A DNA stretch of 64,000 nt, from positions 88,021 to 152,020 of the forward strand of contig NZ_JOCA01000025.1 of assembly GCF_000718785.1 (NCBI RefSeq), read 5' to 3'. The DNA comes from Streptomyces sp. NRRL WC-3626 (GTDB lineage Bacteria > Actinomycetota > Actinomycetes > Streptomycetales > Streptomycetaceae). Each line of letters begins with the position of its first letter. The stretch's first letter is position 1. Shown piece by piece: positions 1-21,453 of this stretch. The translations under genes were made by a program, and so were the position numbers. The notes under the pieces are model-generated. The model did not search any database, was not told the DNA's origin, and saw nothing but the letters and a program-made list of their open reading frames with translations.

Positions 1-674
1 GCCGTCACGCACATCCGCCAGCCGCGGCACTTGTCCTGGTCGACGAGGACGATGCCGTCCTCGACCCGCTTGTACATGGCACCGGACGGACAGGCGGACA
101 CACAGGCCGGGTTGAGGCAGTGCTCGCACAGCCGCGGCAGGTGGAAGAGGAAGGTCTGCTCGAACTCGAACTTGACCTTCTGTGCCCACTCGCCCGACAG
201 GTTGGGGTCGGCGCCGGCGTTCTCGGGCGCACCGCCGAGGCCGTCCTCCCAGTTGGCGCCCCAGGTGATCGCGGTGGGCCTGCCGGTGAGGACCGAACGG
301 GGCCGGGCGACCGGCATGTCGGGACTGGCGGGGGCGCTGATCAGGTTGTCGTAGTCGTAGGTGACCGGCTCGTAGTAGTCCTCGAGGGACGGCAGATCGG
401 GGTTGGAGAACAGCGACAGCAGCCGCTTGACCCGGCCGCCGGAGCGCAGGACCAGGCGCCCGCGCTTGTCGAGCATCCAGCCGCCCTTCCACTGCTCCTG
501 GTCCTCGTAGCGACGGGGGTAGCCGACACCGGGCTTGGTCTCGACGTTGTTGAACCAGGCGTACTCGACACCGGTGCGGTTGGTCCACGTCTGCTTGCAG
601 GTGACCGAGCAGGTGTGGCACCCGATGCACTTGTCGAGGTTCATCACCATCGCGATCTGGGCCATCACGCGCAT
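1..674 (-). CDS. narH: Respiratory nitrate reductase beta subunit NarH (partial, runs off the left edge)
   Basis: NarH carries electrons through four Fe-S clusters from NarI to the molybdenum subunit NarG on the cytoplasmic face of the membrane. About 224 N-terminal codons are visible; the C-terminus lies beyond base 1. The first cluster motif is at residues 16-26 (C16, C19, C22, C26, in CIGCHTC). A second group, CEHCLNPAC, appears near residue 185, and the RGWRMC segment is the last part visible. The ATG at 674 follows the narG stop by two bases, as in nar operons, and the first residues match the complete NarH at 16204. NarJ and NarI would be expected further left. Identification is very secure. 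Confidence 0.96.
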   Translation of the reverse strand, partial: MRVMAQIAMVMNLDKCIGCHTCSVTCKQTWTNRTGVEYAWFNNVETKPGVGYPRRYEDQEQWKGGWMLDKRGRLVLRSGGRVKRLLSLFSNPDLPSLEDYYEPVTYDYDNLISAPASPDMPVARPRSVLTGRPTAITWGANWEDGLGGAPENAGADPNLSGEWAQKVKFEFEQTFLFHLPRLCEHCLNPACVSACPSGAMYKRVEDGIVLVDQDKCRGWRMCVT

Positions 675-676
675 TG

Positions 677-3600
677 TCAGTACTCCACTCGCTGGCTGCG
701 GCGACGGATGACGGTGACCTCGTCGCGCTGGTTGCCGGTCGGGCCGTAGTAGTTGAAGGCGTAGGTGAACTGTGCGTAGCCGCCCGCGAGATGGGTGGGC
801 TTGAGCAGCAGGCGGGTCAGTGAGTTGTGCATGCCGCCGCGCTTGCCGGTGATCTCCGTCTTCGGCACATTGATGGTGCGGTCCTGGGCGTGGTACATGT
901 ACACGGTTCCCTCGGGCATCCGGTGGGTGACCACGGCCCGGCAGGCGACGACACCGTTGCGGTTGTACGCCTCGATCCACTCGTTGTCCTTGACACCGAT
1001 CTTCTCGGCGTCCTCCAGCGACATCCAGACGACCGGTCCGCCGCGGGAGAGGTCGAGCATGTACTTGTTGTCCTGGTAGTTCGAGTGGATGGACCACTTC
1101 GAGTGCGGGGTCAGATAGCGCACCGTGACCTCGGCCCGCCCGTCCTCGTGCAGTTGCTCGTCGCCGTACGCCCGCCGGGCATTCAACGGCGGCCGGAACA
1201 CGGGTAGTTGCTCACCGAGTTCGGTCATCCAGTCGTGCTGGACGAAGAAGTGCTGGCGGCCGGTGAGGGTGTGCCAGGGCTTCTTGTGCTCGGTGTTGAT
1301 GACGAACGGGGAGTAGCGGCGCCCGCCGGTCTCCGATCCCGACCACTCGTACGACGTCATCACCGAGCGGGGCTGGGTGCGGGTGTCGGCGAACGTGATG
1401 CGCTCGGCCTCGCGTTCGGCGGCGAGGTCCACCAGGCCCTCGCTGCCGGTCTGCCGCTCCAGTTCGCGGAAGCCCTCGGTGGCCAGCCGGCCGTTGGTGG
1501 TGCCGGACAGCGCCAGGATCGCCTCGCACATGTCGGAGGCGGTGGCCAGCGAGGGCCGGCCGGCGCCCACGCCGTCGCGGACGGTGCCGCAGCGGTGGCG
1601 CAGCTCCTCGATCTCCCGGTCGGGGTGCACGGTGACGCCCTTGGTGGTGGTGCCCAGGGTGTCGAGCAGCGGACCGACGGCCCGCATCTTCTGCGCGGTG
1701 GACGCGTAGTCCCGCTCGACGACCACCAGCTTGGGCATGGTGCGCCCGGGCACCGGCTCGCACTCGCCGGTCTTCCAGTCCCGGACCACCCCGCCGGGCT
1801 GGGCGAGTTCGTCGGGGGTGTCATGCGTCAGCGGCACCGCCAGGACGTCGGTGCGCGTCCCCAGGTGGTCGGCCGCCAGATCGCTGAACCGGTCGGCGAT
1901 GGTGAGGAAGGTGTCGTAGTCGGTGCGGGCCTGCCACGGCGGGGCGATGGCCGGGGTGAAGGCGTGCACGAAGGGGTGCATGTCCGTGCTGGACAGGTCG
2001 TCCTTCTCGTACCAGGTCGCGGCCGGCAGGACGACGTCGGAGAGCAGACCGGTCGAGGTCATCCGGAAGTCCATGGTGACCAGCAGGTCGAGCTTGCCCT
2101 CGGGCGCCTCGTCCCGCCAGACCACCTCCTGCGGGCGTCCTTCCCGCGGGGTCTCCTCGGAGCGGACGTCCGCGTCCGTACCCAGCAGATGCCGCAGGAA
2201 GTACTCGTTGCCCTTGCCGGAGGAGCCCAGCAGATTCGCCCGCCACACGGTCAGCACACGCGGGAAGTTGGCCGGGTCGTCGGGGTCCTCGGCGGCGAAC
2301 CGCAGCCGCCCCGACTTGAGTTCGTCCACGATGTGCTCGGCGACCGGACGCCCCCGCGCCGCCGCCTCGTCCGCCAGGTCGAGGGGGTTGCGGTTGAAGC
2401 CGGGGTGACCGGGCGTCCAGCCGAGCCGCACGGCCTGCGCCAGACAGTCGGCGAACGTCCGGCCGGTGAGTTTCCCCTGCCCCACCGGGGAGGACAACTC
2501 GTCCGCCCCAAAGGCCTCGTACCGCCACTGGTCGGAGTTGAGGTACCAGTAGGAGGTGCCGGTCATGTGCCGGGTGGGCCGCTGCCAGTCGAAGGCGAAC
2601 GCCAGATGCTGGAAGCCGGTGAGCGGGCGCACCTTCTCCTGACCGACGTAGTGCGCCCAGCCACCGCCGTTGACACCCTGGCAGCCGGTCATGGTGGTCA
2701 GCGCCAGGAACGCCCGGTAGATGGTGTCGGAGTGGAACCAGTGGTTGGTGCCGGCCCCCATCGCAATCATGGAACGGCCGTTGGTGCGCTCGGCGTTGCG
2801 CGCGAACTCCCGTGCGATCCGGGCCGCCTGCTTCGCCGGCACGGACGTGATCGTCTCCTGCCAGGCCGGGGTGTACGGCTCCGCGGCGTCGTCGTACGAG
2901 GACGGCCAGCTGCCCGGCAGACCGGGGCGCTCGACCCCGTACTGGGCCAGCATCAGGTCGAAGACGGTGGTGACCCGGCGTCCGCCGACGGTACGCACCG
3001 GCACCCCGCGGACCATGGTCGTACCGCCCTCGGTGCCGCCCTCGTCGAAGCGGGGCAGCATGACCTCGACCGTCTCCACGGCCCGCTCCAGCAGGGACAG
3101 TTCGGGGGTCACCTCGCCGAGGTCGAGGTTCCAGCGGCCCTGCTCGCCCTTGGCCCAGCGGAAGCCGAGCGAGCCGTTCGGCACCACCGGCTCGCCCGTG
3201 GCCGCGTCGAGCAGGACGGTCTTGGCGCCGGCGTTCTCCTCCTCGTGGCCCAGGTCGGCCGCGGTCAGGAACCCGTCCGGGACCAGACCTCCGTCCGCGT
3301 GCTCGCGCAGGGTGATCAGGAACGGCGCGTCGGTGAACGTGCGCAGATAGTCCTGGAAGTAGGGCACCGTACGGTCGACGAGGAACTCCTTCAGGATGAC
3401 GTGGCCCATGGCCATCGCCAGCGCCCCGTCGGTGCCCGGATGCGGGGACATCCACTCGTCGGCGTGCTTGACGTTGTCGGCGTAGTCGGGGCTGACCGCG
3501 ACGACCTTGGTGCCGTTGTAGCGGGACTCGGTCAGGAAGTGCGCGTCGGGCGTGCGCGTGACCGGGATGTTGGAACCCCACATGATCAGATAACCGGCGT

Positions 3601-4378
3601 TCCACCAGTCCGCCGCCTCCGGCACGTCCGTCTGGTCGCCGAACACCTGCGGCGAGGCCACGGGCAGGTCGGCGTACCAGTCGTAGAACGACAGCAGGGT
3701 GCCGCCGATCAGCGACATGAACCGTGAACCGGCCGCGAAGGACGCCATCGACATCGCCGGGATCGGGGAGAAACCCGTGACCCGGTCCGGACCGTACTCC
3801 TTGACGGTGTGCACATGGGCGGCGGCGACCAGCTCGGCCACCTCGTCCCAGTCGGCCCGCACCAGCCCGCCCTTGCCGCGCGCCCGCTTGTAGGCGCGCG
3901 CCTTCGCGGGGTCACCGGTGATCTCGGCCCATGCCGCCACCGGGTCTCCGAGCCGCTTGCGGGCCTCCCGCCACAGCTTCAGCAGCACGCCACGCACATA
4001 CGGGTAGCGGACCCGGCTGGGGGAGTAGGTGTACCAGGAGAACGACGCCCCGCGCGGGCAGCCGCGCGGCTCGTACTCGGGGCAGTCCGTGCCGATCGAG
4101 GGGTAGTCGGTGGCCTGGTGCTCCCAGGTGATGATGCCGTCCTTGACATACACCATCCATGAGCAGGACCCCGTGCAGTTCACGCCGTGCGTGGAGCGCA
4201 CGACTTTGTCGTGGGACCAGCGGTCCCGGTAGAAGCCCTCCCACGCCGGGTCGCCCGTACCGAACACAGCCCGTCCGTCGGCCGACACCTCGCTGCGGGT
4301 GAGCAGCCGGCGGGCCGCCAGCGGCCAGCCTTCACCGGCGCGCTGCTCTGGCCGCCGTGCGTTCTGATCGTTCTCCAT
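677..4378 (-). CDS. narG: Respiratory nitrate reductase alpha subunit NarG (copy 1)
   Basis: Catalytic Mo-bisMGD subunit of membrane-bound nitrate reductase, reducing nitrate to nitrite in the cytoplasm with quinol-derived electrons. At 1233 aa it is full length for the family. The FS0 cluster ligands are visible as H64, C68, C72 (HGVNCTGSC) and C107 (EPRGC). The YDWYADLP segment carries the aspartate that ligates molybdenum. There is no twin-arginine signal, as expected for cytoplasmic NarG. It is the first gene of a minus-strand narGH(JI) operon and is clearly paralogous to NarG at 12486. Two DevR-like palindromes lie 38-107 bp upstream of the start, suggesting oxygen or NO control. Confidence 0.97.
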   Translation of the reverse strand: MENDQNARRPEQRAGEGWPLAARRLLTRSEVSADGRAVFGTGDPAWEGFYRDRWSHDKVVRSTHGVNCTGSCSWMVYVKDGIITWEHQATDYPSIGTDCPEYEPRGCPRGASFSWYTYSPSRVRYPYVRGVLLKLWREARKRLGDPVAAWAEITGDPAKARAYKRARGKGGLVRADWDEVAELVAAAHVHTVKEYGPDRVTGFSPIPAMSMASFAAGSRFMSLIGGTLLSFYDWYADLPVASPQVFGDQTDVPEAADWWNAGYLIMWGSNIPVTRTPDAHFLTESRYNGTKVVAVSPDYADNVKHADEWMSPHPGTDGALAMAMGHVILKEFLVDRTVPYFQDYLRTFTDAPFLITLREHADGGLVPDGFLTAADLGHEEENAGAKTVLLDAATGEPVVPNGSLGFRWAKGEQGRWNLDLGEVTPELSLLERAVETVEVMLPRFDEGGTEGGTTMVRGVPVRTVGGRRVTTVFDLMLAQYGVERPGLPGSWPSSYDDAAEPYTPAWQETITSVPAKQAARIAREFARNAERTNGRSMIAMGAGTNHWFHSDTIYRAFLALTTMTGCQGVNGGGWAHYVGQEKVRPLTGFQHLAFAFDWQRPTRHMTGTSYWYLNSDQWRYEAFGADELSSPVGQGKLTGRTFADCLAQAVRLGWTPGHPGFNRNPLDLADEAAARGRPVAEHIVDELKSGRLRFAAEDPDDPANFPRVLTVWRANLLGSSGKGNEYFLRHLLGTDADVRSEETPREGRPQEVVWRDEAPEGKLDLLVTMDFRMTSTGLLSDVVLPAATWYEKDDLSSTDMHPFVHAFTPAIAPPWQARTDYDTFLTIADRFSDLAADHLGTRTDVLAVPLTHDTPDELAQPGGVVRDWKTGECEPVPGRTMPKLVVVERDYASTAQKMRAVGPLLDTLGTTTKGVTVHPDREIEELRHRCGTVRDGVGAGRPSLATASDMCEAILALSGTTNGRLATEGFRELERQTGSEGLVDLAAEREAERITFADTRTQPRSVMTSYEWSGSETGGRRYSPFVINTEHKKPWHTLTGRQHFFVQHDWMTELGEQLPVFRPPLNARRAYGDEQLHEDGRAEVTVRYLTPHSKWSIHSNYQDNKYMLDLSRGGPVVWMSLEDAEKIGVKDNEWIEAYNRNGVVACRAVVTHRMPEGTVYMYHAQDRTINVPKTEITGKRGGMHNSLTRLLLKPTHLAGGYAQFTYAFNYYGPTGNQRDEVTVIRRRSQRVEY

Positions 4379-4416
4379 GGTCAGGAACGCTAGGCGGGGC
4401 GGACGCCCGTGACCCG

Positions 4417-4430
4417 GGGCCGGCGGTCCC
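4417..4430. promoter_or_regulatory. DevR/OsdR-like box upstream of narG
   Basis: Sequence GGGCC-GGCG-GTCCC, fitting GGGAC-N4-GNCCC with one A-to-C change in the left half. It ends 39 bp upstream of the narG ATG. The same layout is seen at 5380 and 10378. Binding by a DevR-type response regulator is inferred. Confidence 0.45.
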
Positions 4431-4470
4431 CGGCGGACGGCCTACCGGCCCTTTGCGGCCGGCCGCGACG

Positions 4471-4485
4471 GGGACCAATGGTCCC
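4471..4485. promoter_or_regulatory. Perfect GGGACC-AAT-GGTCCC palindrome
   Basis: A perfect 15-bp interrupted palindrome, extended by GAC at 4467-4469 and GTC at 4487-4489. It lies between divergent narG and the membrane-protein gene at 4805. Its gap is one base longer than the mycobacterial DosR box, so the half-sites are right but the spacing differs. It is probably an operator for the DevR/OsdR family. Confidence 0.55.
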
Positions 4486-4804
4486 TGTCGCGGGGACCGG
4501 TCGGCCGGAGAACGGGGAGCGGCCGGCGGTGCATGCTGGGCACCGACCGAACCGCGGACGCCCTGCCGTACCACCGCGTCCCGTGCCTGCCCCGGCGGCC
4601 GACATCCCCCGTATCAGGCCGCCGGAGGGTGCGGCGCGTATGGCGCGCCCGGCCGCCCGGTCCGGTCCCGCGTCCGGCCGCATCCCACCGCGGCCGGACG
4701 CGTCGTTCTCCTCCCCGTCACCGTCTTCCGCGCCCCGGGCGCCCTGCGGGGCGCCGCTCGCGCAGACCGCCCGAGAACCCATGAGCGAAGAAGGGCAACA
4801 CATC

Positions 4805-5308
4805 ATGGACGCATCACAACGTCGCGCCGGTACCCTGCTCACCGCGGTCGGCCTGGCCCTGGGCGTCGCGGGCCCGGTCATGGTGCTGCGCGGCCGCGGC
4901 GGCAGGAACGAGATCCGCAGCGAGCTCGCCGCCCAGAAGATCACCTTCCCCGAACGCGGGCTGCCCGTCGAACTCGCCGCTCGTGCCGGGTGCCGCGTGG
5001 AGACGGGCCCCGACGCGCACGCCTACGCCGACTTCATCAAGGGCAACCTCGCCCGTACCACCGGCGGCCGTACCTACGCCGAGATCACCAACGAGCTGCA
5101 CGCCGCGGGCGGTGACGACGAGGAGCTCTCCGCACTGCGCCAGACCGCGTTCATGGGCCAGTCCCTGCGCGCCTCGCTGATGTCCGCCTACCAGGCATGG
5201 CACCTCACCACCCTGGTCACCGGCCTGGGCGCCGCCCTGACCGGCGTCGGCGCAGCCCTGCTGGCCACCGCGGTCGCCCTGCCGTCCCACACCCCCGACC
5301 GTCCCTGA
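4805..5308 (+). CDS. Small membrane protein of the nitrate island, function unknown
   Basis: A 167-aa protein with a hydrophobic helix near residues 8-28 and a second at about 140-160, so both ends appear membrane-anchored around a polar middle of about 110 residues. I recognise no catalytic motif. ATG 4805 was chosen because the AAGAAGGG sequence sits about 9 bases upstream; an in-frame ATG at 4781 is less well placed. It lies divergently from narG across a DevR-like palindrome, which suggests a role linked to anaerobic nitrate metabolism, but that rests on context only. Its stop codon lies inside the first copy of a 42-bp tandem repeat. Confidence 0.75.
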   Translation: MDASQRRAGTLLTAVGLALGVAGPVMVLRGRGGRNEIRSELAAQKITFPERGLPVELAARAGCRVETGPDAHAYADFIKGNLARTTGGRTYAEITNELHAAGGDDEELSALRQTAFMGQSLRASLMSAYQAWHLTTLVTGLGAALTGVGAALLATAVALPSHTPDRP

Positions 5309-5359
5309 ACGCACGGCGCCCTGCCGTCCCACACCCCCGACCGCCCCTGAACGCACGGC
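5276..5359 (+). repeat. 42-bp tandem duplication across a stop codon
   Basis: Two adjacent 42-bp copies, 5276-5317 and 5318-5359, differ at one base (GTCCCT versus GCCCCT). The first copy contains the last codons and stop of the gene at 4805. The second is non-coding and repeats the same residues and stop in the shadow frame. This looks like a recent local duplication. Confidence 0.9.
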
Positions 5360-5379
5360 GGTTCGCCCGCCCGTGGACA

Positions 5380-5393
5380 GGGACCTTCGGCCC
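5380..5393. promoter_or_regulatory. DevR/OsdR-like box upstream of the radical SAM-nitrite reductase operon
   Basis: GGGAC-CTTC-GGCCC followed by T, a full match to GGGAC-N4-GNCCC and close to mycobacterial DosR boxes. It lies about 240 bp upstream of ATG 5633 in a 324-bp gap (5309-5632). Apart from this box and the tandem repeat, the gap shows nothing recognisable. Confidence 0.55.
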
Positions 5394-5632
5394 TCACGGA
5401 GATGACCAACGGCCGACGCGCCGGGCCCCGCCGCCGGTGGATGCTGGCGGCGACCGATCCGGAGGTGTCCCGTGCACGACCATGCCGACCGCCGTCCAGG
5501 CCGCTGCCACCGCTGCCGCTCGCGGTGGGAGCCGCGCCGGGTCCGACCCGGCCACCGTCCGGCCGCCCGCCTCGTCTGCCCCGACTCCAGGGCGGCCGGA
5601 CACAGCCTCGGCACCTGGGGGAGGGCCGCGCG

Positions 5633-6853
5633 ATGAACACAGCCGCCCACGCGGTACGACGTCAGCGGCACGACGCGGGGGAGCGCCCCTTCATCGTGAT
5701 CTGGGAGTCCACCCGGGCCTGCCCGCTGGCCTGTCTGCACTGTCGCGCCGAGGCCGTGCCCGACCGCGACCCGCGCGAGCTGGACACCGCCGCCGCGAAG
5801 GACCTGCTCCACCAGGTCGCCGGCTTCGGGCGGCCCGCCCCACTCTTCGTGATCACCGGCGGCGACCCCTTCCAGCGCCCCGACCTGACCGAACTCATCG
5901 CGTACGGCCGGGAGATCGGCGTCCGCGTCGCGGTGTCCCCGTCCGGCACGCCGACGGTGACGGCGGAGCGGCTGCGGGAACTGCGCGAGGCGGGCGCGGT
6001 CGGACTCTCACTGAGCCTGGACGGCTCCACCGCAGGCGTCCACGACACCTTCCGCGGTGTTCCCGGCGTGTTCCGCTCGACCCTGGACGCCTGGGACGCG
6101 GCGCGCGCCCTCGGCATGAAGGTGCAGATCAACACCACGGTCACCCGGCACAACCTGCACGACCTCCCCGACATCGTCCACCTGGTGGCCGAGCGCGGGG
6201 CGATGCTGTGGAGCGCCTTCTTCCTGGTGCCCACCGGACGCGGCCGGCAACTCGGCGTCCTCACCGCCGCCGAGACCGAGGACGTCCTCAACTTCGTGTA
6301 CGACGTCGGCCTCACCGTGCCGGCCAAGACCACCGAGGCCCACCACTTCCGCCGCGTCGCCCTGCAGCGCAAGGTGCTGGAGGACGCCGGCGACGACCAC
6401 GCGGCGGTGCTCGGACTCGGGCCGCTGTACGAGGAGTTGAGCGGGCGGGCGACGGAGCTGGGCCTGGACACCGGGGCACGCCGGGTGCGGCGCCCGCCGC
6501 TGGACGTCAACGCGGGCCGCGGCTTCGTCTTCATCTCGCACACCGGCACGGTCCACCCGAGCGGCTTCCTGCCGCTGGGCGCCGGAAGCGTGCGCGAGAC
6601 ACCGCTGACGGAGATCTACCGCACCTCCGAACTGTTCACCGGCCTGCGGGACGCCGACCGGCTCGGCGGCCGGTGCGGCGCGTGCGAGTTCCGCCGGGTC
6701 TGCGGCGGCTCGCGGTCACGCGCGTACGGCGTCACCGGCGACCCGTACGCCGAGGAGCCCTGGTGCGACTACCAGCCGGGCTCCTTCCCCCGCCGGCGGG
6801 AACTGGCGGCGTTGCTGGGCGGCGAGGAGAGCCGTGGACGGCAAGAACACTGA
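5633..6853 (+). CDS. Radical SAM/SPASM-type protein (NirJ/AhbD-like, TIGR04053-like)
   Basis: The 406-aa product has the radical SAM cluster motif CPLACLHC (C30, C34, C37), a GGDP motif near residue 80, and a C-terminal cysteine-rich region (CGACEFRRVCGG) near residues 345-356 that would hold an auxiliary Fe-S cluster. Such proteins modify haem precursors or ribosomally made peptides. The nearest class by eye is the NirJ/AhbD-like group often found near actinobacterial respiratory genes. ATG 5633 has GGGGGAGGG just upstream. Its 3' end overlaps the next gene (6834) by 20 bases, so the two are translationally coupled. The substrate is unknown, and a copper nitrite reductase needs no haem d1. 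Confidence 0.85.
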   Translation: MNTAAHAVRRQRHDAGERPFIVIWESTRACPLACLHCRAEAVPDRDPRELDTAAAKDLLHQVAGFGRPAPLFVITGGDPFQRPDLTELIAYGREIGVRVAVSPSGTPTVTAERLRELREAGAVGLSLSLDGSTAGVHDTFRGVPGVFRSTLDAWDAARALGMKVQINTTVTRHNLHDLPDIVHLVAERGAMLWSAFFLVPTGRGRQLGVLTAAETEDVLNFVYDVGLTVPAKTTEAHHFRRVALQRKVLEDAGDDHAAVLGLGPLYEELSGRATELGLDTGARRVRRPPLDVNAGRGFVFISHTGTVHPSGFLPLGAGSVRETPLTEIYRTSELFTGLRDADRLGGRCGACEFRRVCGGSRSRAYGVTGDPYAEEPWCDYQPGSFPRRRELAALLGGEESRGRQEH

Positions 6854-8171
6854 CCGGCCGGTGACTTCACGGCGGCCCGCCCTGTGGGGCACCGTCGCGG
6901 GCGCCGTGCTCACCGTCCTGGCCGTGCTCGCCGCCAACAGCGGCAAGGACACGGTCGCCGGCACGGCGGCGCCGGGCGCCCGCACCACGCGTACCGTCGC
7001 CGTGACCTTGGCCGGCATGCGCGTACGCCCCGCACGGATCGAGGTCGCCGCAGGCACCGTACTGCGGCTCGAGGTCACCAACTCCGACGCCCGGCGCCAC
7101 GACCTCAAGGTCGGGAACGGCCCCGCCACCCCCCTGCTCGACCGCGGCGAGACCCGCACGCTCGACCTCGGCCCGGTCACCGGCGACCGTGAGGCGTGGT
7201 GCACCCTGCCGGGCCACCGCGCGGCGGGGATGACGATGGCCATCGTCGTCACGGACGGCACGGGCGACACGGGCCACGAGGGCCACTCCACGGCCGCCGG
7301 CCCGGACCTCTCCGCGGGCTTCTCCCCCGGCTGGCAGCCACGCGACGCCGACCTGGCACCCGCGCCCGGCGGAACGGTCCACAGGACCGAACTGCGCGCC
7401 GCGCACACCACGGTCGAAGTGGCCCCGGGCGTGGAGCAGGAGAGATGGACCTTCGGCGGCACCGCACCGGGCCCCACCCTGCGGGGCAGGGTCGGCGACG
7501 TCTTCGAGATCACCCTCGTCAACGACGATCAACGCATGGGCCATGGAATCGACTTCCACGCCGGCTCCCTCGCCCCCGACGGGCCGATGCGCACCATCGA
7601 GCCCGGCGAACGCCTGGTCTACCGCTTCCGCGCCGAGAGGGCCGGGGCATGGCTGTACCACTGCGGCACCGCGCCCATGCTCCAGCACATCGGCAACGGC
7701 ATGTACGGCGCCGTCGTCATCGACCCGCCCGGACTCCCCGAGGTCGACCACGAATACCTGCTGGTCTCCTCCGAGCTCTACCTCGGCACACCCGGCAGCA
7801 CCGCGCAGGTGACCAGGATGCGTGAACACACCCCGGACGCCTGGGCGTTCAACGGTGTCGCGAACCAGTACACCGAGCGGCCCCTGAAAGCGAAGGCCGG
7901 TGAGCGGGCCCGCTTCTGGGTGGTCGCCGCCGGTCCGTCCGACGGCATCGCCTTCCATGTCGTCGGCACCGTCTTCGACACCGTGTACAAGGAAGGCGCC
8001 CACCTGCTCGAACCGCAGGATGAGGGCGGCTCGCAGGTCCTCGATCTGGCCCCGGCCCAGGGCGGGTTCGTCGAGACGACGTTCCCCGAGGCCGGTCACT
8101 ACCCCTTCGTCGACCACGACATGCGCCACGCCGAAGCCGGGGCGCACGGCATGGTGGAGGTGAGCGACTGA
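6834..8171 (+). CDS. nirK: Copper nitrite reductase-like protein with N-terminal cupredoxin domain
   Basis: A 445-aa exported or anchored protein (hydrophobic helix about 17-35). Domain 1 (about 50-140) is a cupredoxin with a complete type 1 site: H89, C123, H128, M133. Domains 2-3 follow the NirK plan: type 1 ligands H237, C277, H285, M290; type 2 ligands H242, H276 and a later VDH histidine near residue 420; and the catalytic aspartate D240 in GIDFH. Known NirK reduces nitrite to NO. By eye, the residue matching the second catalytic histidine (His255 of Alcaligenes NirK) reads as valine in the HVVGTVFD segment, so activity should be tested. It overlaps the radical SAM gene and the CopD-like gene. 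Confidence 0.85.
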   Translation: MDGKNTDRPVTSRRPALWGTVAGAVLTVLAVLAANSGKDTVAGTAAPGARTTRTVAVTLAGMRVRPARIEVAAGTVLRLEVTNSDARRHDLKVGNGPATPLLDRGETRTLDLGPVTGDREAWCTLPGHRAAGMTMAIVVTDGTGDTGHEGHSTAAGPDLSAGFSPGWQPRDADLAPAPGGTVHRTELRAAHTTVEVAPGVEQERWTFGGTAPGPTLRGRVGDVFEITLVNDDQRMGHGIDFHAGSLAPDGPMRTIEPGERLVYRFRAERAGAWLYHCGTAPMLQHIGNGMYGAVVIDPPGLPEVDHEYLLVSSELYLGTPGSTAQVTRMREHTPDAWAFNGVANQYTERPLKAKAGERARFWVVAAGPSDGIAFHVVGTVFDTVYKEGAHLLEPQDEGGSQVLDLAPAQGGFVETTFPEAGHYPFVDHDMRHAEAGAHGMVEVSD

Positions 8172-8617
8172 TGGACACCGTCGGCTGGTGGTCCCTGGTG
8201 CGGTTCGCGCATGTGGCCGGCGCCGCCCTGTGGGTCGGCGGCCAGCTCGCCCTCTCCCTGGTCGTCCTGCCGCTGGCCCGCCATCTGCTCGCCCCCGAGG
8301 CCAAGGACTCCTTCACGGCCGCCGCCGGCCGCCGGTTCGGGATGCTGACCGGAGCGGTGTTCCTGCCCGTGCAGCTGGCCACCGGCTGGGCCATGGCCTG
8401 GCACCGGGGAGTCACCTGGGCCTCGCTCGCCGAACCCGGCTACGGCCGCACCCTCGCGGCCAAACTCGCCCTGTTCGCCGTGGTGATGCTCGCCGCGGCG
8501 GGACACGGAATCGCCCACGCCGGGCATCGCACCGACCTGGCCCGGGCCCTCGCGGTCCTCTCCCTCGTCGGGTCCCTCGGTGTCGTCCTGCTCGCCACCG
8601 CCCTGCCCGCCACCTGA
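8171..8617 (+). CDS. CopD-like integral membrane protein
   Basis: A 148-aa protein with four hydrophobic segments (about residues 8-32, 55-75, 92-112, 122-145) and conserved histidines in the first (RFAHVAG) and third (GHGIAHAGH). This matches the CopD/DUF2269-like fold involved in copper transfer or haem-containing membrane proteins. Its ATG shares one base with the stop of the nitrite reductase gene, so the two are translationally coupled. A role in supplying copper or electrons to the nitrite reductase is a reasonable inference. It is the last gene of the operon. Confidence 0.75.
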   Translation: MDTVGWWSLVRFAHVAGAALWVGGQLALSLVVLPLARHLLAPEAKDSFTAAAGRRFGMLTGAVFLPVQLATGWAMAWHRGVTWASLAEPGYGRTLAAKLALFAVVMLAAAGHGIAHAGHRTDLARALAVLSLVGSLGVVLLATALPAT

Positions 8618-8677
8618 CCCGACGCACGCACCCCGCCCGACCGGACCACCCGGCCTGGACGACCTGCCCCCGAATCA

Positions 8678-8712
8678 AGGCCGCATGGCCCCCGGCAAGG
8701 GCCGGTCAACCC
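8678..8712. promoter_or_regulatory. Tandem weak DevR-like boxes upstream of the nitroreductase gene
   Basis: Two degenerate copies, AGGCC-GCAT-GGCCC (8678-8691) and GGGCC-GGTC-AACCC (8699-8712), start 21 bp apart, about two helical turns. They end 65 bp before ATG 8778. Each has two mismatches to GGGAC-N4-GNCCC. A GGCCC...GGGCC hairpin overlaps them and could instead terminate the upstream operon. Confidence 0.3.
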
Positions 8713-8777
8713 TCCTCAGCAAGCTCCCGGCGGCGCAGAGTTGACGCAACGGAGGGCAACGTGGTGAAGGAGCCGAG

Positions 8778-9782
8778 ATGCAGACCCGGGAAGTCGACGC
8801 CACAGCCGTTCAGGCCCTGCTGGCCGCCGCGGTGGCCGCACCGTCGATCCACAACACACAGCCCTGGCGGTTCGGGCTGGACCCGGACAGCAGGTCGATC
8901 CTGGTCCGTGTCGACCGGAGACGACGGCTTCCGGCCACCGATCCCCAGCTGCGCGCCCAGTACCTGTCGGTCGGCGCGGCCGTCTTCAACCTCCGGGTGG
9001 CGGCCGAGCACCTGGGCTGGCATCCCGTGGTCCGGCTCCGTCCCGCCGGGGAGGATCCCGACGTACTGGCCACGGTACGGCTGACCGGGACCGCCGTACC
9101 CGGACAGCCGTCCCTGCGCGCTCTGCACGCCGCCATCGAGCGACGTCACACCAGCCGGATGCCGTTCACCGGCCGGCCCGTGCCGGATTCGATCGTGAGC
9201 GAGATGACCGGCGCGGCCCGCGCCGAGGGCGCGCGTCTGGACGTCCCCGACATCATGGCGACCCGGCGCCTGCTGCGGCTGACGGCGGCGGCCGAGTCCC
9301 GCAACACCGTCCACTCCGCCCGCGCGGCCGAGGCACGTACCTGGATCACCGCCCCGGGAACGGACGCCGCCTACGGCATTCCCCTGACGTCCCTGGGCCC
9401 GCAGGACGCGTCCGGGCGGATTCCGGTGCGGGACTTCATCGGCGCGCTGCCCGCCCCGCACCTGCCCGCCCTGCGCTTCGAACGCCATGCCCAGGTGGCC
9501 CTGCTGTGGACGACCGACGACCGGCGCCACGACTGGCTGCGCGCCGGGCAGGCCCTGGAGCGGGTCCTGCTCACGACGACCGCGCACGGAGTGCGGACCT
9601 CGATACTGCACCAGGCCATGGAGTGGCCGGACCTGCGGGAGGCCATGGCCGGATCGAGGCGGCGCTGCCACCCCCAGGTACTGATCCGCTTCGGATACGG
9701 CCCCGAAGGCGCCCGGACGCCCCGCGCGTCCGCGGAATCCGTCCTCGAGCCCCTCACGGGCCGGGAGACGGACGCCACCTGA
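8778..9782 (+). CDS. Acg-family nitroreductase-like protein
   Basis: A 334-aa protein of the nitroreductase superfamily, resembling mycobacterial Acg (Rv2032) and its paralogues. The N-terminal segment with PSIHNTQPW is the FMN-contacting signature, and a second nitroreductase-like half follows to about residue 325. In mycobacteria such genes belong to the DosR dormancy regulon and are thought to bind or sequester FMN. The setting here, within a nitrate island with DevR-like boxes, fits that picture. It is a monocistronic plus-strand gene, convergent with the flavin-binding gene at 9812. Confidence 0.85.
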   Translation: MQTREVDATAVQALLAAAVAAPSIHNTQPWRFGLDPDSRSILVRVDRRRRLPATDPQLRAQYLSVGAAVFNLRVAAEHLGWHPVVRLRPAGEDPDVLATVRLTGTAVPGQPSLRALHAAIERRHTSRMPFTGRPVPDSIVSEMTGAARAEGARLDVPDIMATRRLLRLTAAAESRNTVHSARAAEARTWITAPGTDAAYGIPLTSLGPQDASGRIPVRDFIGALPAPHLPALRFERHAQVALLWTTDDRRHDWLRAGQALERVLLTTTAHGVRTSILHQAMEWPDLREAMAGSRRRCHPQVLIRFGYGPEGARTPRASAESVLEPLTGRETDAT

Positions 9783-9811
9783 GGGAACCGGAGCCGGGGC
9801 ACGCGTGCGCC

Positions 9812-10234
9812 TCACCGCATGCTGAGTGCCCCGTTGAGTTCACGCCCGGTGACCATCTCGGAATCGATCCGGACGAACACTTCCTCCGTGAGCGGCATCC
9901 AGGAGCTGGGGCCGGTCCGGGAAAGCCGCTCGTGCTCGGCCGGGTCGGTCACGACGGAGGCGCGCCCGGTGACCACCACACTCCAGCCGGACCTGGTCGC
10001 CGCGTCGAACTCGTCAGCCTCGAAGGCGACGACGACACCGTCGACGGCGCGCACGAGGTCCGCGGCCGGCGACGTGCGCACCAGAACCGAGCCGTCCTCG
10101 TCCAGGGAGAAGTTGATGGGCAGGACCGCGGGCAGTGCCTGCCGGGTGTACACGATGCGGCCGACCGGCACCACGGCGAGCAGGCGCAGGCACTCCTGTC
10201 GGCCGAGTGCGCGAAAGCCGTCTGACTGGAACAT
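9812..10234 (-). CDS. Pyridoxamine 5'-phosphate oxidase-fold flavin-binding protein
   Basis: A 140-aa single-domain split-barrel protein with the CLRLLAVVPVGRIVY start and FVRIDSEMVTGREL end typical of the small actinobacterial PPOX group. These bind FMN or F420 and reduce small substrates; several belong to the mycobacterial DosR regulon (Rv3131-linked and Rv2004c-type neighbourhoods). It is transcribed away from narK. A strong 32-bp palindrome begins 27 bp upstream of its ATG and probably controls it. The specific substrate is unknown. Confidence 0.85.
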   Translation of the reverse strand: MFQSDGFRALGRQECLRLLAVVPVGRIVYTRQALPAVLPINFSLDEDGSVLVRTSPAADLVRAVDGVVVAFEADEFDAATRSGWSVVVTGRASVVTDPAEHERLSRTGPSSWMPLTEEVFVRIDSEMVTGRELNGALSMR

Positions 10235-10260
10235 CAGCCCATGGTCCCCCGCGGACCCCG

Positions 10261-10292
10261 CCCGGGGTAGGGCCGACCGGCCCTACCCCGGG
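10261..10292. promoter_or_regulatory. 32-bp palindrome with 14-bp perfect arms containing a DevR-like core
   Basis: The arms (10261-10274 and 10279-10292, CCCGGGGTAGGGCC and its complement) flank GACC. The core 10270-10283 reads GGGCC-GACC-GGCCC, one change from GGGAC-N4-GNCCC. It lies just upstream of the flavin-binding gene on the minus strand. It is likely an operator; an RNA hairpin is possible, but it is not placed as a terminator. Confidence 0.55.
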
Positions 10293-10377
10293 CCTCCGCT
10301 CGCGACGACCGGCCCGGGCACCCGGCCGGGGACAGGGACGTCCGGGGCCGCGGGAGGGGCCTGTCCGTCCGCCCACA

Positions 10378-10391
10378 GGGACTCATGGCCC
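10378..10391. promoter_or_regulatory. DevR/OsdR-like box upstream of narK
   Basis: GGGAC-TCAT-GGCCC, a full match to GGGAC-N4-GNCCC, placed 131 bp upstream of the narK ATG and about 145 bp upstream of the divergent flavin-binding gene. Confidence 0.5.
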
Positions 10392-10522
10392 ATGCCGCCG
10401 GCGTGCCCGGATTGCGGACAGTGGTCATGGGACGCAGTCGGGCGGGCGAGGGGCCTGCCGCGGATGTGCGGTCCCGGTGGTGCCCGCTCACCACCCCTGC
10501 TCGAGGAGAGGGAACGGACAAC

Positions 10523-11851: not shown

Positions 11852-12328
11852 ATGTGCGAGTACTGCGGCTGCCAGTCCCTGGCGTCCATCGACGAACTGA
11901 CCCGCGAGCACGACGAGGTCGTCCGCCTGATCAGCCACCTGCGCCCCGCCCACCGGAGCGGGGACATCGCCCGGATGGCCGAGCTGGCCCGCCGCATCAC
12001 CACCGTGCTCGTCCCCCACACCCGGGTCGAGGAGCACGGTCTGTTCCCCGCGATGGCCGCCGACTTCCCCGACCAGATCGCCGCCCTGGAGGCCGAGCAC
12101 CGGCAGGTCGAGTCGGTGCTCGCCGAGGCCGCCGACGGCGTCACCCCGGCGGACCCGGCCTGGCCCGACCGTCTGCTGGAGTCCATGGCCATGCTGCGCG
12201 ACCACATCCTCAAGGAACAGGACGGCGTCTTCCCCGCGGCGCTCGCCACCCTCGGCACCGAGGAGTGGGAAGCGGTCGACAAGGTCCGCGCGGAGGCAGG
12301 CACCGCCCTGCCCCGGCCGGCCTCCTGA
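11852..12328 (+). CDS. Hemerythrin HHE-domain protein
   Basis: A 158-aa four-helix protein with di-iron ligands in family spacing: H20, H56-E60, H83 and H118-E122. A short cysteine motif, CEYCGC, starts the protein. Bacterial hemerythrin-like proteins bind O2 or NO or repair Fe-S clusters, and an NO- or oxygen-handling role fits next to narK and a nitrite reductase. AAGGTGAAGGAGAA immediately upstream is a strong ribosome binding site. It ends 157 bp before the second narG. Confidence 0.9.
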   Translation: MCEYCGCQSLASIDELTREHDEVVRLISHLRPAHRSGDIARMAELARRITTVLVPHTRVEEHGLFPAMAADFPDQIAALEAEHRQVESVLAEAADGVTPADPAWPDRLLESMAMLRDHILKEQDGVFPAALATLGTEEWEAVDKVRAEAGTALPRPAS

Positions 12329-12393
12329 TCCCACCGACGGTGCGCCGTCCCTCTCGATCGAAGGGCCCGTTTCGCGTGATCCTGGTGCGGCTG

Positions 12394-12424
12394 TTGACCT
12401 TCCCGGGGACAGGAGTCGTAGAGT
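12394..12424 (+). promoter_or_regulatory. Candidate HrdB-type promoter of narGHJI
   Basis: TTGACC (12394-12399) and TAGAGT (12419-12424) are separated by 19 bp, slightly long for the vegetative consensus. The -10 matches TAGAPuT exactly. It lies 62 bp upstream of the narG start. No clear DevR-like box was found in the 157-bp gap, so this operon may be controlled differently from the first one. Confidence 0.4.
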
Positions 12425-12485
12425 CGTTGCGGCCAGACTTGATCACGACTCGGACGGGCCCGCGTGCCCGGGACGGGGTGGCACG

Positions 12486-15400
12486 GTGGGCACGGAGACC
12501 GGTCGGACACCGGCAGGCATGGACGGCGAGCTGGCGGAGGCGCTCGTCCGCAGCCGCCGCTTCTTCACCCGGGCGGAGGTCTCCGACGACCTGCGCACCC
12601 TGCACCGCAAGGGCGGCAGACAGGCGGACGAGTTCTACCGGGACCGCTGGTCCCACGACAAGGTGGTCCGCTCCACCCACGGTGTGAACTGCACGGGTTC
12701 CTGCTCCTGGAAGGTGTACGTCAAGGACGGCATCATCACCTGGGAGGCGCAGCAGACCGACTACCCGTCCGTCGGCCCGGACCGCCCCGAGTACGAGCCG
12801 CGCGGCTGCCCCCGGGGGGCGGCCTTCTCCTGGTACACCTACTCGCCCACCAGGGTGCGCTACCCGTACGTCCGCGGCGTCCTGCTGCGGATGTACCGCG
12901 AGGCCAGGGAGCGGCTCGGCGACCCGGTCGCGGCCTGGGCCGACATCGTGTCCGACCCCGAGAAGGCGCGCCGCTACAAACGGGCGCGCGGCAAGGGCGG
13001 CCTGGTGCGGGCTAGCTGGGACGAGGCGGTGGAGATGATCGCCGCCGCGCACGTCCACACGATCAAGGAGTACGGTCCCGACCGGCTGGCCGGGTTCTCA
13101 CCGATCCCGGCGATGTCGATGGTCTCGCACGCGGCCGGGGCCCGCTTCTACTCGCTGCTCGGCGGGGCGATGCTGTCGTTCTACGACTGGTACGCCGACC
13201 TGCCGGTCGCCTCGCCGCAGATGTTCGGCGACCAGACGGACGTACCGGAGTCGGGGGACTGGTGGGACGCCGGCTATCTGATCATGTGGGGTTCGAACCT
13301 GCCGGTGACCCGCACTCCGGACGCCCACTGGATGGTCGAGGCCCGTTATCGCGGCCAGAAGGTCGTCGTCGTGTCGCCGGACTACGCGGACAACGTGAAG
13401 TTCGCCGACGAGTGGCTCGCCGCCCAGCCCGGCACCGACGGCGCGCTGGCGATGGCCATGGGGCATGTGATCCTCAAGGAGTTCTTCGTCGACCGGGCCA
13501 CTCCGTACTTCACCGACTACGTCAGGAAGTTCACGGATCTGCCCTTCCTGGTCGCCCTCGAGGAGGCGGAGGGTGAACCGGGCACCTACCGGCCCGGCAA
13601 GTTCCTGACCGCCGCCGACCTCGGCGGCGAGCACGCGGAGGCCGAGCACGCGGAGTTCCGTACCGTGCTGCTGGACGAGGCCACCGGCCGGCCCGTCGTC
13701 CCGAACGGCACGCTCGGCGACCGCTACGGCGACTCGGGCGCCGGCAAGTGGAACCTCGACCTCGGCGAGACCCGGCCCCTGCTGTCCGCCGAGGGCGGTG
13801 AGGAGACACCGGTCGCGGTCGAACTGCCCCGCTTCGACGCCCTCGACGGCGGCGCGGACCGGCTGCGGCGCGGCGTGCCCGTACGCCGGGTCGCCGGGCG
13901 GCTGGTCACCACGGTCTACGACCTGCTGCTGGCCCAGTACGGCGTCGTCCGCGACGGCCTGCCCGGCCGGTGGCCCGCCTCCTACGACGACGCGAGCGAG
14001 CCGTACACCCCCGCCTGGCAGGCCGCCCTCACCGGGGTGGACGCGGGGAAGGCGGCCAGGATCGCCCGGGAGTTCGCGGCCAACGCGGAGGAGTCCGGCG
14101 GCCGTTCGATGATCGTCATGGGGGCGGGGACGAACCACTGGTTCCACTCCGACACCATCTACCGGGCCTTCCTTACCCTGACGACCCTCACCGGCTGCCA
14201 GGGCGTCAACGGTGGCGGCTGGGCGCACTACGTCGGCCAGGAGAAGGTGCGCCCCCTCACCGGTTACTCCACGATCGCGACCGCCGCCGACTGGAACCGC
14301 CCGGCCCGGCTGATGATCCAGACGGCCTACTGGTATCTGCACGGCGACCAGTTCCGCTACGACCCGTTCTCCGCCGACACGCTCGCCGCGGCCGGTGCGG
14401 GAGGCCCGTTCGCCGGGAAGACCACGGCGGACGTGATCGCGCAGTCGGCACGGATGGGCTGGATGCCGTCGTATCCGACCTTCGACCGCAACCCCCTCGA
14501 CCTCGCCGACGAGGCCGAGACGGCGGGCCGCACCGTGGGCGAACACGTGGTGGAGGAACTGAAGGCGGGACGGCTCGGGTTCGCGGGCGAGGACCCCGAC
14601 GCGCCGCGCAACTTCCCGCGCGTGCTGACCGTGTGGCGGGCCAATCTCCTGGGCTCCTCGGCCAAGGGAAACGAGTACTTCCTCAAGCACCTGCTCGGCA
14701 CCGACTCCTCCGTACGCGCCACGGAGGCGCCCCCCGGGGCGCGGCCGCGGGACGTGGTCTGGCGGGAGGAGGCCCCCGAGGGCAAACTCGATCTGCTGCT
14801 CACCCTCGACTTCCGCATGACGAGCACCACCGTCTTCTCCGACGTGGTGCTGCCCGCCGCCACCTGGTACGAGAAGCACGATCTGTCCAGCACCGACATG
14901 CACCCCTTCGTGCACGCCTTCAATCCGGCGATCTCCCCGCCCTGGCAGACCCGCACGGACTGGGACGCCTTCCACACCATCGCCCGCGAGTTCAGCCGGC
15001 AGGCCGCGGAGCATCTTGGCGTACGCAAGGACGTGGTGGCCGCGCCGCTGCTGCACGACACCCCGGACGAACTGGCGAACCCGCACGGCAGGGTGCGTGA
15101 CTGGAAGGCGGGGGAGTGCGAGCCGGTTCCCGGCCGCACCATGCCCAAGCTGATCACCGTGGAGCGCGACTACGGCGCCGTCGCCGACAGGATGGGCGCG
15201 CTCGGCCCGCTGCTGGACACCCTGGGCGCCACCACCAAGGGCGTCACCTTCAGACTGGAACGCGAACTCGATTACCTGCGGCACAAGAACGGCACGGTAC
15301 GCGGCGGGGCGGCCGACGGCCGTCCGTCGATCGCCCGCGATGTGCACGCCTGCGAGGCGATCCTCGCGATGTCGGGCACCACGAACGGGCATCTGGCCAC

Positions 15401-16202
15401 GCAGGGCTTCCACACCGTCGAGGCACGCACCGGGACCCGGCTGGCGGATCTGGCCGCCGAGCACGAGGGCAAACAGATCACCTTCGCCGACACCCAGGCC
15501 GCCCCCGTGCCGGTCATCACCTCCCCGGAATGGTCGGGTTCGGAGACCGGCGGACGCCGCTACTCGCCGTTCACCGTCAACGTCGAGCGGCTCAAACCCT
15601 GGCACACCCTCACCGGCCGCCAGCACTTCTACCTCGACCACGACTGGATGAGCGCACTCGGTGAGCAACTCCCCGTCTACCGGCCCCCGTTGAACATGAA
15701 CGCGCTCTTCGGCGAGCCCTGCATCGGCGATACCGGCGAACTCGGCGTCACCGTGCGCTACCTCACCCCGCACAACAAGTGGTCGATCCACTCCGAGTAC
15801 CAGGACAACCTGTTCATGCTGTCGCTGTCCCGGGGCGGACCGACGATCTGGATGAGCACCCAGGACGCGGCCAAGGCCGGGGTGAAGGACAACGACTGGG
15901 TCGAGGCGGTCAACCGCAACGGCGTGGTCGCCGCCCGCGCGATCGTCTCGCACCGGATGCCGGAGGGCACGGTCTACATGCACCACGCCCAGGACCGGCT
16001 GATCGACGTGCCCCGCACCGAGACCACGGGCCGCCGGGGCGGCATCCACAACTCCCTCACCCGGCTGCTGATCAAACCGAGCCATCTCATCGGCGGCTAC
16101 GCGCAGTTGTCGTACGCCTTCAACTACCTCGGCCCGACCGGCAACCAGCGCGACGAGGTCACCGTCGTCCGGCGCCGTACGAACCAGGAGGTGGAGTACT
16201 GA
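12486..16202 (+). CDS. narG: Respiratory nitrate reductase alpha subunit NarG (copy 2)
   Basis: Full-length 1238-aa Mo-bisMGD catalytic subunit. FS0 ligands are H65, C69, C73 and C108, and the molybdenum-binding YDWYADLP segment is intact. It is the first gene of a complete narGHJI operon. It differs from copy 1 mainly in the N-terminus and in the insert at about 350-450, so the two are diverged paralogues. GTG 12486 gives the longest product; ATG 12519 is an alternative, and neither has a strong ribosome binding site. narH starts two bases after the stop. Confidence 0.97.
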   Translation: MGTETGRTPAGMDGELAEALVRSRRFFTRAEVSDDLRTLHRKGGRQADEFYRDRWSHDKVVRSTHGVNCTGSCSWKVYVKDGIITWEAQQTDYPSVGPDRPEYEPRGCPRGAAFSWYTYSPTRVRYPYVRGVLLRMYREARERLGDPVAAWADIVSDPEKARRYKRARGKGGLVRASWDEAVEMIAAAHVHTIKEYGPDRLAGFSPIPAMSMVSHAAGARFYSLLGGAMLSFYDWYADLPVASPQMFGDQTDVPESGDWWDAGYLIMWGSNLPVTRTPDAHWMVEARYRGQKVVVVSPDYADNVKFADEWLAAQPGTDGALAMAMGHVILKEFFVDRATPYFTDYVRKFTDLPFLVALEEAEGEPGTYRPGKFLTAADLGGEHAEAEHAEFRTVLLDEATGRPVVPNGTLGDRYGDSGAGKWNLDLGETRPLLSAEGGEETPVAVELPRFDALDGGADRLRRGVPVRRVAGRLVTTVYDLLLAQYGVVRDGLPGRWPASYDDASEPYTPAWQAALTGVDAGKAARIAREFAANAEESGGRSMIVMGAGTNHWFHSDTIYRAFLTLTTLTGCQGVNGGGWAHYVGQEKVRPLTGYSTIATAADWNRPARLMIQTAYWYLHGDQFRYDPFSADTLAAAGAGGPFAGKTTADVIAQSARMGWMPSYPTFDRNPLDLADEAETAGRTVGEHVVEELKAGRLGFAGEDPDAPRNFPRVLTVWRANLLGSSAKGNEYFLKHLLGTDSSVRATEAPPGARPRDVVWREEAPEGKLDLLLTLDFRMTSTTVFSDVVLPAATWYEKHDLSSTDMHPFVHAFNPAISPPWQTRTDWDAFHTIAREFSRQAAEHLGVRKDVVAAPLLHDTPDELANPHGRVRDWKAGECEPVPGRTMPKLITVERDYGAVADRMGALGPLLDTLGATTKGVTFRLERELDYLRHKNGTVRGGAADGRPSIARDVHACEAILAMSGTTNGHLATQGFHTVEARTGTRLADLAAEHEGKQITFADTQAAPVPVITSPEWSGSETGGRRYSPFTVNVERLKPWHTLTGRQHFYLDHDWMSALGEQLPVYRPPLNMNALFGEPCIGDTGELGVTVRYLTPHNKWSIHSEYQDNLFMLSLSRGGPTIWMSTQDAAKAGVKDNDWVEAVNRNGVVAARAIVSHRMPEGTVYMHHAQDRLIDVPRTETTGRRGGIHNSLTRLLIKPSHLIGGYAQLSYAFNYLGPTGNQRDEVTVVRRRTNQEVEY

Positions 16203-19305: not shown

Positions 19306-19308
<3 letters not shown>
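19295..19308. other. 14-bp perfect palindrome holding both convergent stop codons
   Basis: TGAACGGCCGTTCA contains the narI stop (19295-19297, plus) and the kinase stop (19306-19308, minus) at its two ends. The stem is short and lacks a T-tract, so it could be only a weak bidirectional terminator. Confidence 0.6.

Positions 19309-21453
<2,145 letters not shown>

Follow-up and report, generated by a model that had tools for sequence, protein, structure and literature searches.

The window, meaning here the whole stretch of DNA analysed, is 64,000 nucleotides long and forms the right end of a 152-kb contig in the 7.9 Mb genome of Streptomyces sp. NRRL WC-3626 (G000:C25:88021-152020). Near its left end lies an island in which two complete nar operons, whose NarG proteins are 71% identical, flank a cassette encoding a NirK-like copper protein, and in which 16-bp palindromes (boxes) of the OsdR/DevR type stand upstream of several genes. 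We read the island as an extended OsdR/DevR regulon of a Streptomyces that includes a copper nitrite reductase, a flavohaemoglobin, the kinase encoded in the window and a loop of nitric oxide (NO) turnover, and we give this reading a probability of roughly 0.8. The genes are as follows; negative positions belong to the same contig, to the left of the window.

-5686..-4472, minus strand: flavohaemoglobin (hmp), Globin and NAD_binding_1 above Pfam cut-offs
-3741..-3049, plus strand: OsdR/DevR-type response regulator, 3 kb left of the window
-3009..-2461: VKOR gene, left of the window
-2395..-1637: narI of nar operon 1, which continues left of the window
-1640..-849: narJ of nar operon 1, likewise left of the window
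1..674, minus strand: narH (nar operon 1), truncated at the edge of the window
677..4378, minus strand: narG of nar operon 1, TIGR01580 above cut-off
4781..5308, plus strand: gene without a Pfam or NCBIfam match, start uncertain
5633..6853, plus strand: radical SAM/SPASM protein of the TIGR04053 family (491 bits, cut-off 395)
6834..8171, plus strand: NirK-like three-domain copper protein, best solved relative 2dv6
8171..8617, plus strand: membrane protein weakly resembling CopD (22.5 bits, Pfam cut-off 32.1)
8778..9782, plus strand: Acg/Rv3131-family oxidoreductase binding flavin mononucleotide, NF047509 above cut-off
9812..10234, minus strand: pyridoxamine 5′-phosphate oxidase-like flavin protein, PF12900
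10523..11794, plus strand: NarK-family nitrate/nitrite transporter (TIGR00886 195 bits, under the cut-off of 311.7; MFS_1 above cut-off)
11852..12328, plus strand: hemerythrin, PF01814
12486..19297, plus strand: narGHJI operon 2, with narG at 12486-16202
19306..21081, minus strand: DevS-type histidine kinase with two GAF domains, HisKA_3 and HATPase

Boxes of the island and their conservation

Sites were scored with a matrix made from the 26 predicted OsdR sites of S. coelicolor in Table 1 of PMC5069765, for some of which a gel shift is given there, and a second, independent matrix was built without the SCO0204 and SCO0213-0216 sites. The published OsdR/DevR site consensus is AGGGCCGATCGGCCCT (PMC5069765). 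The sites are listed below.

-4354, -4299 and -3866: boxes left of the window
4416..4431: moderate OsdR-type box GGGGCCGGCGGTCCCC, score 10.6
4437..4452: moderate OsdR-type box ACGGCCTACCGGCCCT, score 12.3, absent from the original prediction
4471..4486: perfect palindrome GGGACCAATGGTCCC, score 8.2, centre 54.5 bp ahead of ATGCTGG at 4533
5379..5394: strong box AGGGACCTTCGGCCCT, score 17.5, centre 54.5 bp ahead of ATGCTGG at 5441
8698..8713: weak box AGGGCCGGTCAACCCT (score 9.7), 5′ of the Acg-like gene
10269..10284: strongest box AGGGCCGACCGGCCCT (score 20.7), located at -50 relative to the flavin protein gene and at -254 relative to narK
10377..10392: AGGGACTCATGGCCCA, listed in the original prediction, score 2.1, unsupported as a box

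Box positions were compared by direct computation in 27 Streptomyces loci. Thirteen are the Streptomyces ones (one species twice) among 51 loci encoding relatives of the NirK-like protein; the other 14 are stretches of other Streptomyces genomes (14 of 15 were used; L150 was left out, its contig being as long as that of L053), and further species overlap between the two sets is possible. A box was counted when it scored at least 11 and lay no more than 400 bp upstream, and the counts for the flavin protein gene, acg and hmp cover relatives of at least 60% identity only. A radical SAM gene was called ahead of nirK in 24 of the 27 loci, and in 21 of these the operon is preceded by a box. In two of the three exceptions (L059, L060 and L148) nirK itself has one, and none of the nirK entries inside operons (L149, L157, L159 and L161) does. 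The flavin protein gene has an upstream box in all 12 relatives and hmp in all 3, and the counts are 13 of 19 for narG1 and 9 of 16 for narK. Pooled counts for copD, hemerythrin, narH1 and narG2 are 0 of 65, and 16 of 134 other genes of the same loci, which may include true targets, have a box.

The spacing of the nirK-operon box is conserved as well. Its centre lies exactly 54.5 bp ahead of A(T/G)GCTG in 14 of the 24 loci, and 53.5-55.5 bp ahead in 16, compared with a mean of 0.02 and a maximum of 1 when the downstream sequence was shuffled. In the window this 54.5-bp spacing is present twice, at 5379 and at 4471.

Several results weigh against so wide a regulon. A box of at least 11 is missing upstream in 3 of 24 radical SAM, 6 of 19 narG1 and 7 of 16 narK regions, acg has one in only 1 of 16 relatives, and shared ancestry of the regions may account for part of the conserved spacing. 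In the survey outside Streptomyces, where L099 carried no gene call, four Actinomadura loci (L062, L068, L080 and L102) encode near nirK a 71% identical regulator whose box scores 18-19, and most other nirK loci have no box of at least 11 beside nirK. Of the scope first proposed for the regulon, narG, the nirK operon and the intergenic region between the flavin protein gene and narK are supported, and the Acg-like gene, with its weak box, is not. The upstream region of nar operon 2 itself (narG2) carries a box in none of 10 relatives and no site of at least 7.5 at 12328-12486 in the window; this operon is probably read from the narK promoter.

All the box sequences listed in the original prediction are present at their places, those at 5379 and 10269 being strong and that at 4416 moderate; the sequences at 8677 (the neighbour of the 8698 box, score 5.7), 8698 and 10377 are weak or noise. 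The 10269 box is one base away from the consensus, and a single base separates the 5379 box from the SCO0216 (narG2) site of S. coelicolor. Upstream of narG lie the moderate boxes at 4416 and 4437. The 4471 palindrome draws its support mainly from its spacing, and the gene it serves may be that at 4781-5308, either alone or together with narG, because the 54.5-bp spacing lies on the plus strand, as at the nirK-operon box, and faces that gene. The exact 5379 box occurs twice more in the genome (L036 and L037): the copy at C9:14972 lies 95 bp upstream of a called gene, and that at C6:287974 lies within a called gene, 115 bp upstream of the next.

Numbers of matches alone do not set the motif apart. 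The pattern GGGAC-N4-GNCCC, originally given as the consensus, has 4 matches in the window versus 4.70 expected, which is chance level; it is inexact, and AGGGCCGATCGGCCCT describes the sites better. With at most one mismatch, RGGGMCNNNNGKCCCY occurs 15 times in the window versus 12.25 expected, and its 42 copies genome-wide are fewer than the 73 of the backwards control. The original prediction had proposed a genome-wide search for the pattern, with background frequency as the refuting outcome, and the count is indeed at or below background. Such numbers are what chance palindromes of a G+C-rich genome would produce, and they speak for that explanation. We nevertheless hold it very improbable, because the box position is conserved upstream of the same operons in relatives, compared with 0 of 65 for within-operon genes, and because clustering and rank of the best sites speak against it. 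Four of the 42 RGGGMCNNNNGKCCCY copies lie inside the 14-kb stretch C25:84154-98304 (Poisson ~1e-6 for a stretch chosen post hoc, ~7e-4 allowing for scanning). The two best of the 42 are both AGGGCCGACCGGCCCT, and both lie inside the island; composition predicts ~0.04 copies of this sequence. With the independent matrix, the top five sites across 104 kb of the contig are those at -3866, 10269, 5379, -4354 and -4299. The motif thus exceeds chance by quality, clustering and conservation, not by count. Perfect copies of GGGACCN3GGTCCC at 4213 and 12640 occupy matching places inside the paralogous narG genes and were taken as coding sequence.

The regulator and its candidate kinase

The assignment of the palindromes to a DevR/OsdR-type system is borne out. 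The response regulator was thought to lie elsewhere in the genome; it is encoded on the same contig, behind the top-scoring box at -3866 (20.7), which is 125 bp upstream of its gene. It consists of a receiver and a LuxR-type DNA-binding domain, and its best solved match is M. tuberculosis DevR (E 3.1e-78, 62% identity). DevR residues D54, T82, K179, K182 and N183 are all kept; we assume their roles in DevR, where K179, K182 and N183 are presumably DNA-contact residues. The next-closest regulator in the genome is 44% identical to it, and by this comparison it is the genome's only close DevR-type regulator. Across its own locus and the 29 closest relatives examined, 29 of 30 regulator genes have a box no more than 300 bp upstream.

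Primer sites for quantitative PCR have been published for S. coelicolor devR (PMC10552308), and two of them fit the regulator gene with 2 mismatches in all, a comparison limited to the primer sites. The mismatches number 0-6 in regulators of at least 86% identity and 4-7 in six members of a clade of 73-78%, ranges that overlap. The comparison leans towards the regulator being the orthologue of SCO0204. In another Streptomyces genome, G138, there are two OsdR-type regulators (92-94% identity), on C232, which is L154, and on C221; one of them is encoded 6-7 kb from nirK.

The hmp gene, divergent from the regulator gene, is preceded by two strong boxes. A second full-length hmp on contig C26 (58% identity) has no site of at least 9 within the stretch examined. 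In S. coelicolor, hmpA is under NsrR (PMC4766573), whereas here both hmp and the NirK candidate carry DevR-type boxes. An NsrR gene next to hmp, as in S. coelicolor, was not found: the 10 Rrf2-family matches are all on contigs other than C25 and C26, which hold the two full-length hmp genes.

In the kinase, the first GAF domain is closest to 2vzw, which we take to be DosT, and to DevS, and H154 aligns with the haem-ligand histidine of the HPPM motif, presumably H149 of DevS. The alignment therefore confirms the DevS-type kinase with a conserved haem histidine that had been proposed at 19306. It had also been counted as a member of the regulon: its gene is in the island, and regulon membership is unsupported, with no site of at least 7.5 upstream before 28606. 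The kinase is the sole full-length match and the sole two-GAF DevS-type kinase found in the genome. Other GAF proteins were considered as rival sensors and rejected: the one on C17 is a GAF-SpoIIE phosphatase, and the one on C18 is a single-GAF kinase beside its own regulator.

The distribution of both proteins was counted by eye over 199 Streptomyces genomes, among the matches listed, with regulator and kinase groups defined by identity bands and place lists. An OsdR-type regulator of at least 80% identity occurs in at least 61 genomes, and the kinase clade (at least 64% identity) in at least 20, WC-3626 included and one of them partial. In 9 of the 19 other clade genomes (G003, G069, G096, G101, G117, G132, G143, G149 and G163) it lies within ~11 kb of an OsdR relative of at least 80%. 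Three genomes (G013, G132 and G195) have only the window kinase clade at E 1e-120, plus a close OsdR relative. In at least 12 other genomes (G007, G022, G080, G092, G118, G130, G137, G141, G151, G152, G171 and G194) the gene directly next to that of the regulator, in the same orientation, encodes a different kinase (50-55% identity). The NirK-like protein was found at E 1e-40 or better in 16 of the 199 genomes. Among the matches listed, a close OsdR relative is present in 14 of these 16 versus 47 of the 183 others (P 1.4e-6), and a window-type kinase in 7 of 16 versus 13 of 183 (P 2.3e-4), by Fisher tests that ignore kinship.

The arrangement in WC-3626 itself counts against a partnership of kinase and regulator, as does the bare upstream region of the kinase gene. 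Unlike osdR-osdK, the two genes are 22 kb apart on opposite strands with no shared operon, and an OsdK orthologue would stand in an operon with osdR, as SCO0203 does, which the window kinase fails to do. This distance, together with the adjoining kinase of the 12 or more other genomes, would suit a regulon that is real but in which OsdR is activated by another kinase or by acetyl phosphate, the window kinase not being its partner. We consider this unlikely, since the nearest GAF relatives here are the C17 phosphatase and the C18 kinase, and since the linkage in nine genomes and the three genomes with only this kinase clade speak against it. The kinase at 19306-21081 is a candidate partner of the regulator, and the OsdR regulon of this strain is apparently served by a kinase other than OsdK.

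A putative nitrate-nitrite-NO loop

The protein at 6834-8171 is called NirK-like because it falls below the cut-off of the copper nitrite reductase model TIGR02376 (159 bits, cut-off 296.3). The NarK and flavohaemoglobin proteins are likewise below NCBIfam cut-offs (346.9 bits for the flavohaemoglobin against NF009805, cut-off 432), and these scores count against our proposal. For the NirK-like protein, the low score and the weak CopD match directly after its gene would fit another multicopper oxidase, for example one for copper handling, in which case there would be no NO loop. This strikes us as quite unlikely, since at least the best 36 solved relatives are called nitrite reductases, the three-domain 2dv6 first, and the gene sits between nar genes under the same box. 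In addition, type 1 and type 2 copper motifs and the active-site Asp and His align with solved enzymes (GHGIDFH, YHCGT, QHIGNGM, FHVVGT and FVDHD); we take the ligand and catalytic roles of these residues to be those of the solved enzymes. Like 2dv6, the protein has an N-terminal cupredoxin domain followed by a two-domain NirK core with copper-ligand motifs. Unlike 2dv6, it falls below the NCBIfam NirK cut-off and belongs to an actinobacterial branch, and its activity is putative. A second NirK relative (C13, 54%) has a site of 14.5 past its 3′ end, not upstream.

The simplest reading of the island is a hypoxia-induced loop from nitrate through nitrite and NO back to nitrate, with feedback via the kinase haem. 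The haem-GAF kinase would phosphorylate the OsdR-type regulator, and phosphorylated OsdR would bind the 16-bp palindromes in WC-3626 and activate transcription of the regulator gene itself and of hmp, as well as of nar operon 1, of the radical SAM-nirK-copD operon and of two divergent units, one with the flavin protein gene and one with narK, hemerythrin and nar2. Nar would convert nitrate to nitrite, NirK nitrite to NO, and Hmp NO to nitrate. The regulon would then both make and limit NO at low oxygen, and NO on the kinase haem would probably feed back. NO activates DevS in M. tuberculosis. In S. coelicolor, a NO donor above 1 µM lowers DevS autophosphorylation (PMC4766573), and the sign of the NO effect in WC-3626 may differ from that in M. 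tuberculosis.

A bolder version, which we offer only as a speculation and would not bet on, is that the OsdR regulon of some Streptomyces has turned into a self-contained generator and limiter of NO. NirK would be the dedicated enzyme for the nitrite-to-NO step left open in S. coelicolor, Hmp would be the sink under the same regulator, and a distinct kinase clade, having taken the place of OsdK, would let NO gate its own production. The AhbD-like radical SAM protein would decarboxylate coprohaem to haem without oxygen and so provide haem to the cytochrome and globin components under hypoxia.

Relation to known systems and the wider regulon

The closest parallel is the OsdR/OsdK system of S. 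coelicolor (SCO0203/0204; PMC5069765), which has the same box and a box ahead of the regulator gene. OsdR binds such sites there, and DevSR controls narG2 (PMC5069765, PMC4766573). The OsdR targets given in PMC5069765 are also alike, with narK, a hemerythrin, a pyridoxamine-oxidase-like gene, a nitroreductase and a nar operon, and the shared box of the flavin protein gene and narK has almost the same position (-50/-254 here, -50/-252 at SCO0214/0213). Unlike that system, the island adds the radical SAM-nirK-copD operon, a second nar operon and hmp, and no kinase follows osdR, the sole DevS-type kinase being of another clade. Neither nirK nor hmp appears among the targets predicted in Table 1 of PMC5069765. 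The DosR/DevR-DevS/DosT system of M. tuberculosis also has a related box, a haem-GAF kinase and a regulator with the identity given above, and its regulon includes nitrate genes (PMC8139620); it differs from the island, where nirK and hmp have boxes.

In the nitrogen oxide cycle of S. coelicolor, Nar likewise makes nitrite, flavohaemoglobin removes NO and DevSR controls narG2, and according to the Discussion of PMC4766573 the conversion of nitrite to NO was yet to be elucidated. In that species, NO controls both development and the production of antibiotics. The nirK operon under an OsdR-type box is a testable candidate for this step in other Streptomyces, because it is conserved and its copper nitrite reductase appears intact. 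One regulator would tie together the source of NO, its sink and the sensor, and the distribution of kinases suggests that the partner of OsdR is exchangeable in evolution. Already known were the regulator and the box, together with about half of the targets. As far as open-licence searches show, what is new is the presence of hmp and of a conserved nirK operon under the box, along with the apparent kinase exchange: among the open-licence papers listed, none was seen to report OsdR control of nirK or hmp, and the Streptomyces and OsdR parts of the review PMC8139620 make no link between OsdR and nirK.

Outside the island, universal stress protein genes on C22 and C26 have boxes 84 bp and ~100 bp upstream, respectively, and the copies on C2 and C14 have no site of at least 10 in the stretches examined. 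On C1 (L018), a weaker pattern match and palindrome at 343616 lies 37 bp ahead of the gene upstream of chdC, and a box of 16.5 at 344591 precedes the next gene. The chlorite dismutase family includes the haem-synthesis enzyme ChdC. The stress-protein and chdC-region sites parallel those of S. coelicolor SCO0200 and SCO6041 (PMC5069765), and the matching S. coelicolor chdC is labelled an “oxygen-generating chlorite dismutase” in Table 1 of that paper.

For the radical SAM protein, the next model after TIGR04053 is AhbD, below its cut-off; no mention of TIGR04053 was found in the open-licence literature. A TIGR04053 gene accompanies nirK also in Actinomadura, Catellatospora and Streptoalloteichus loci. 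The open reading frame 5472-5636 was considered as a leader or precursor peptide, and coding is unsupported: pairwise differences at the three codon positions are 615/511/578, the synonymous share of 0.38 equals that of another frame, and in L053 a 4-base gap falls inside it. It has 54 codons, contains a VCPDSRAAG stretch conserved in relatives and overlaps the radical SAM start by ATGA.

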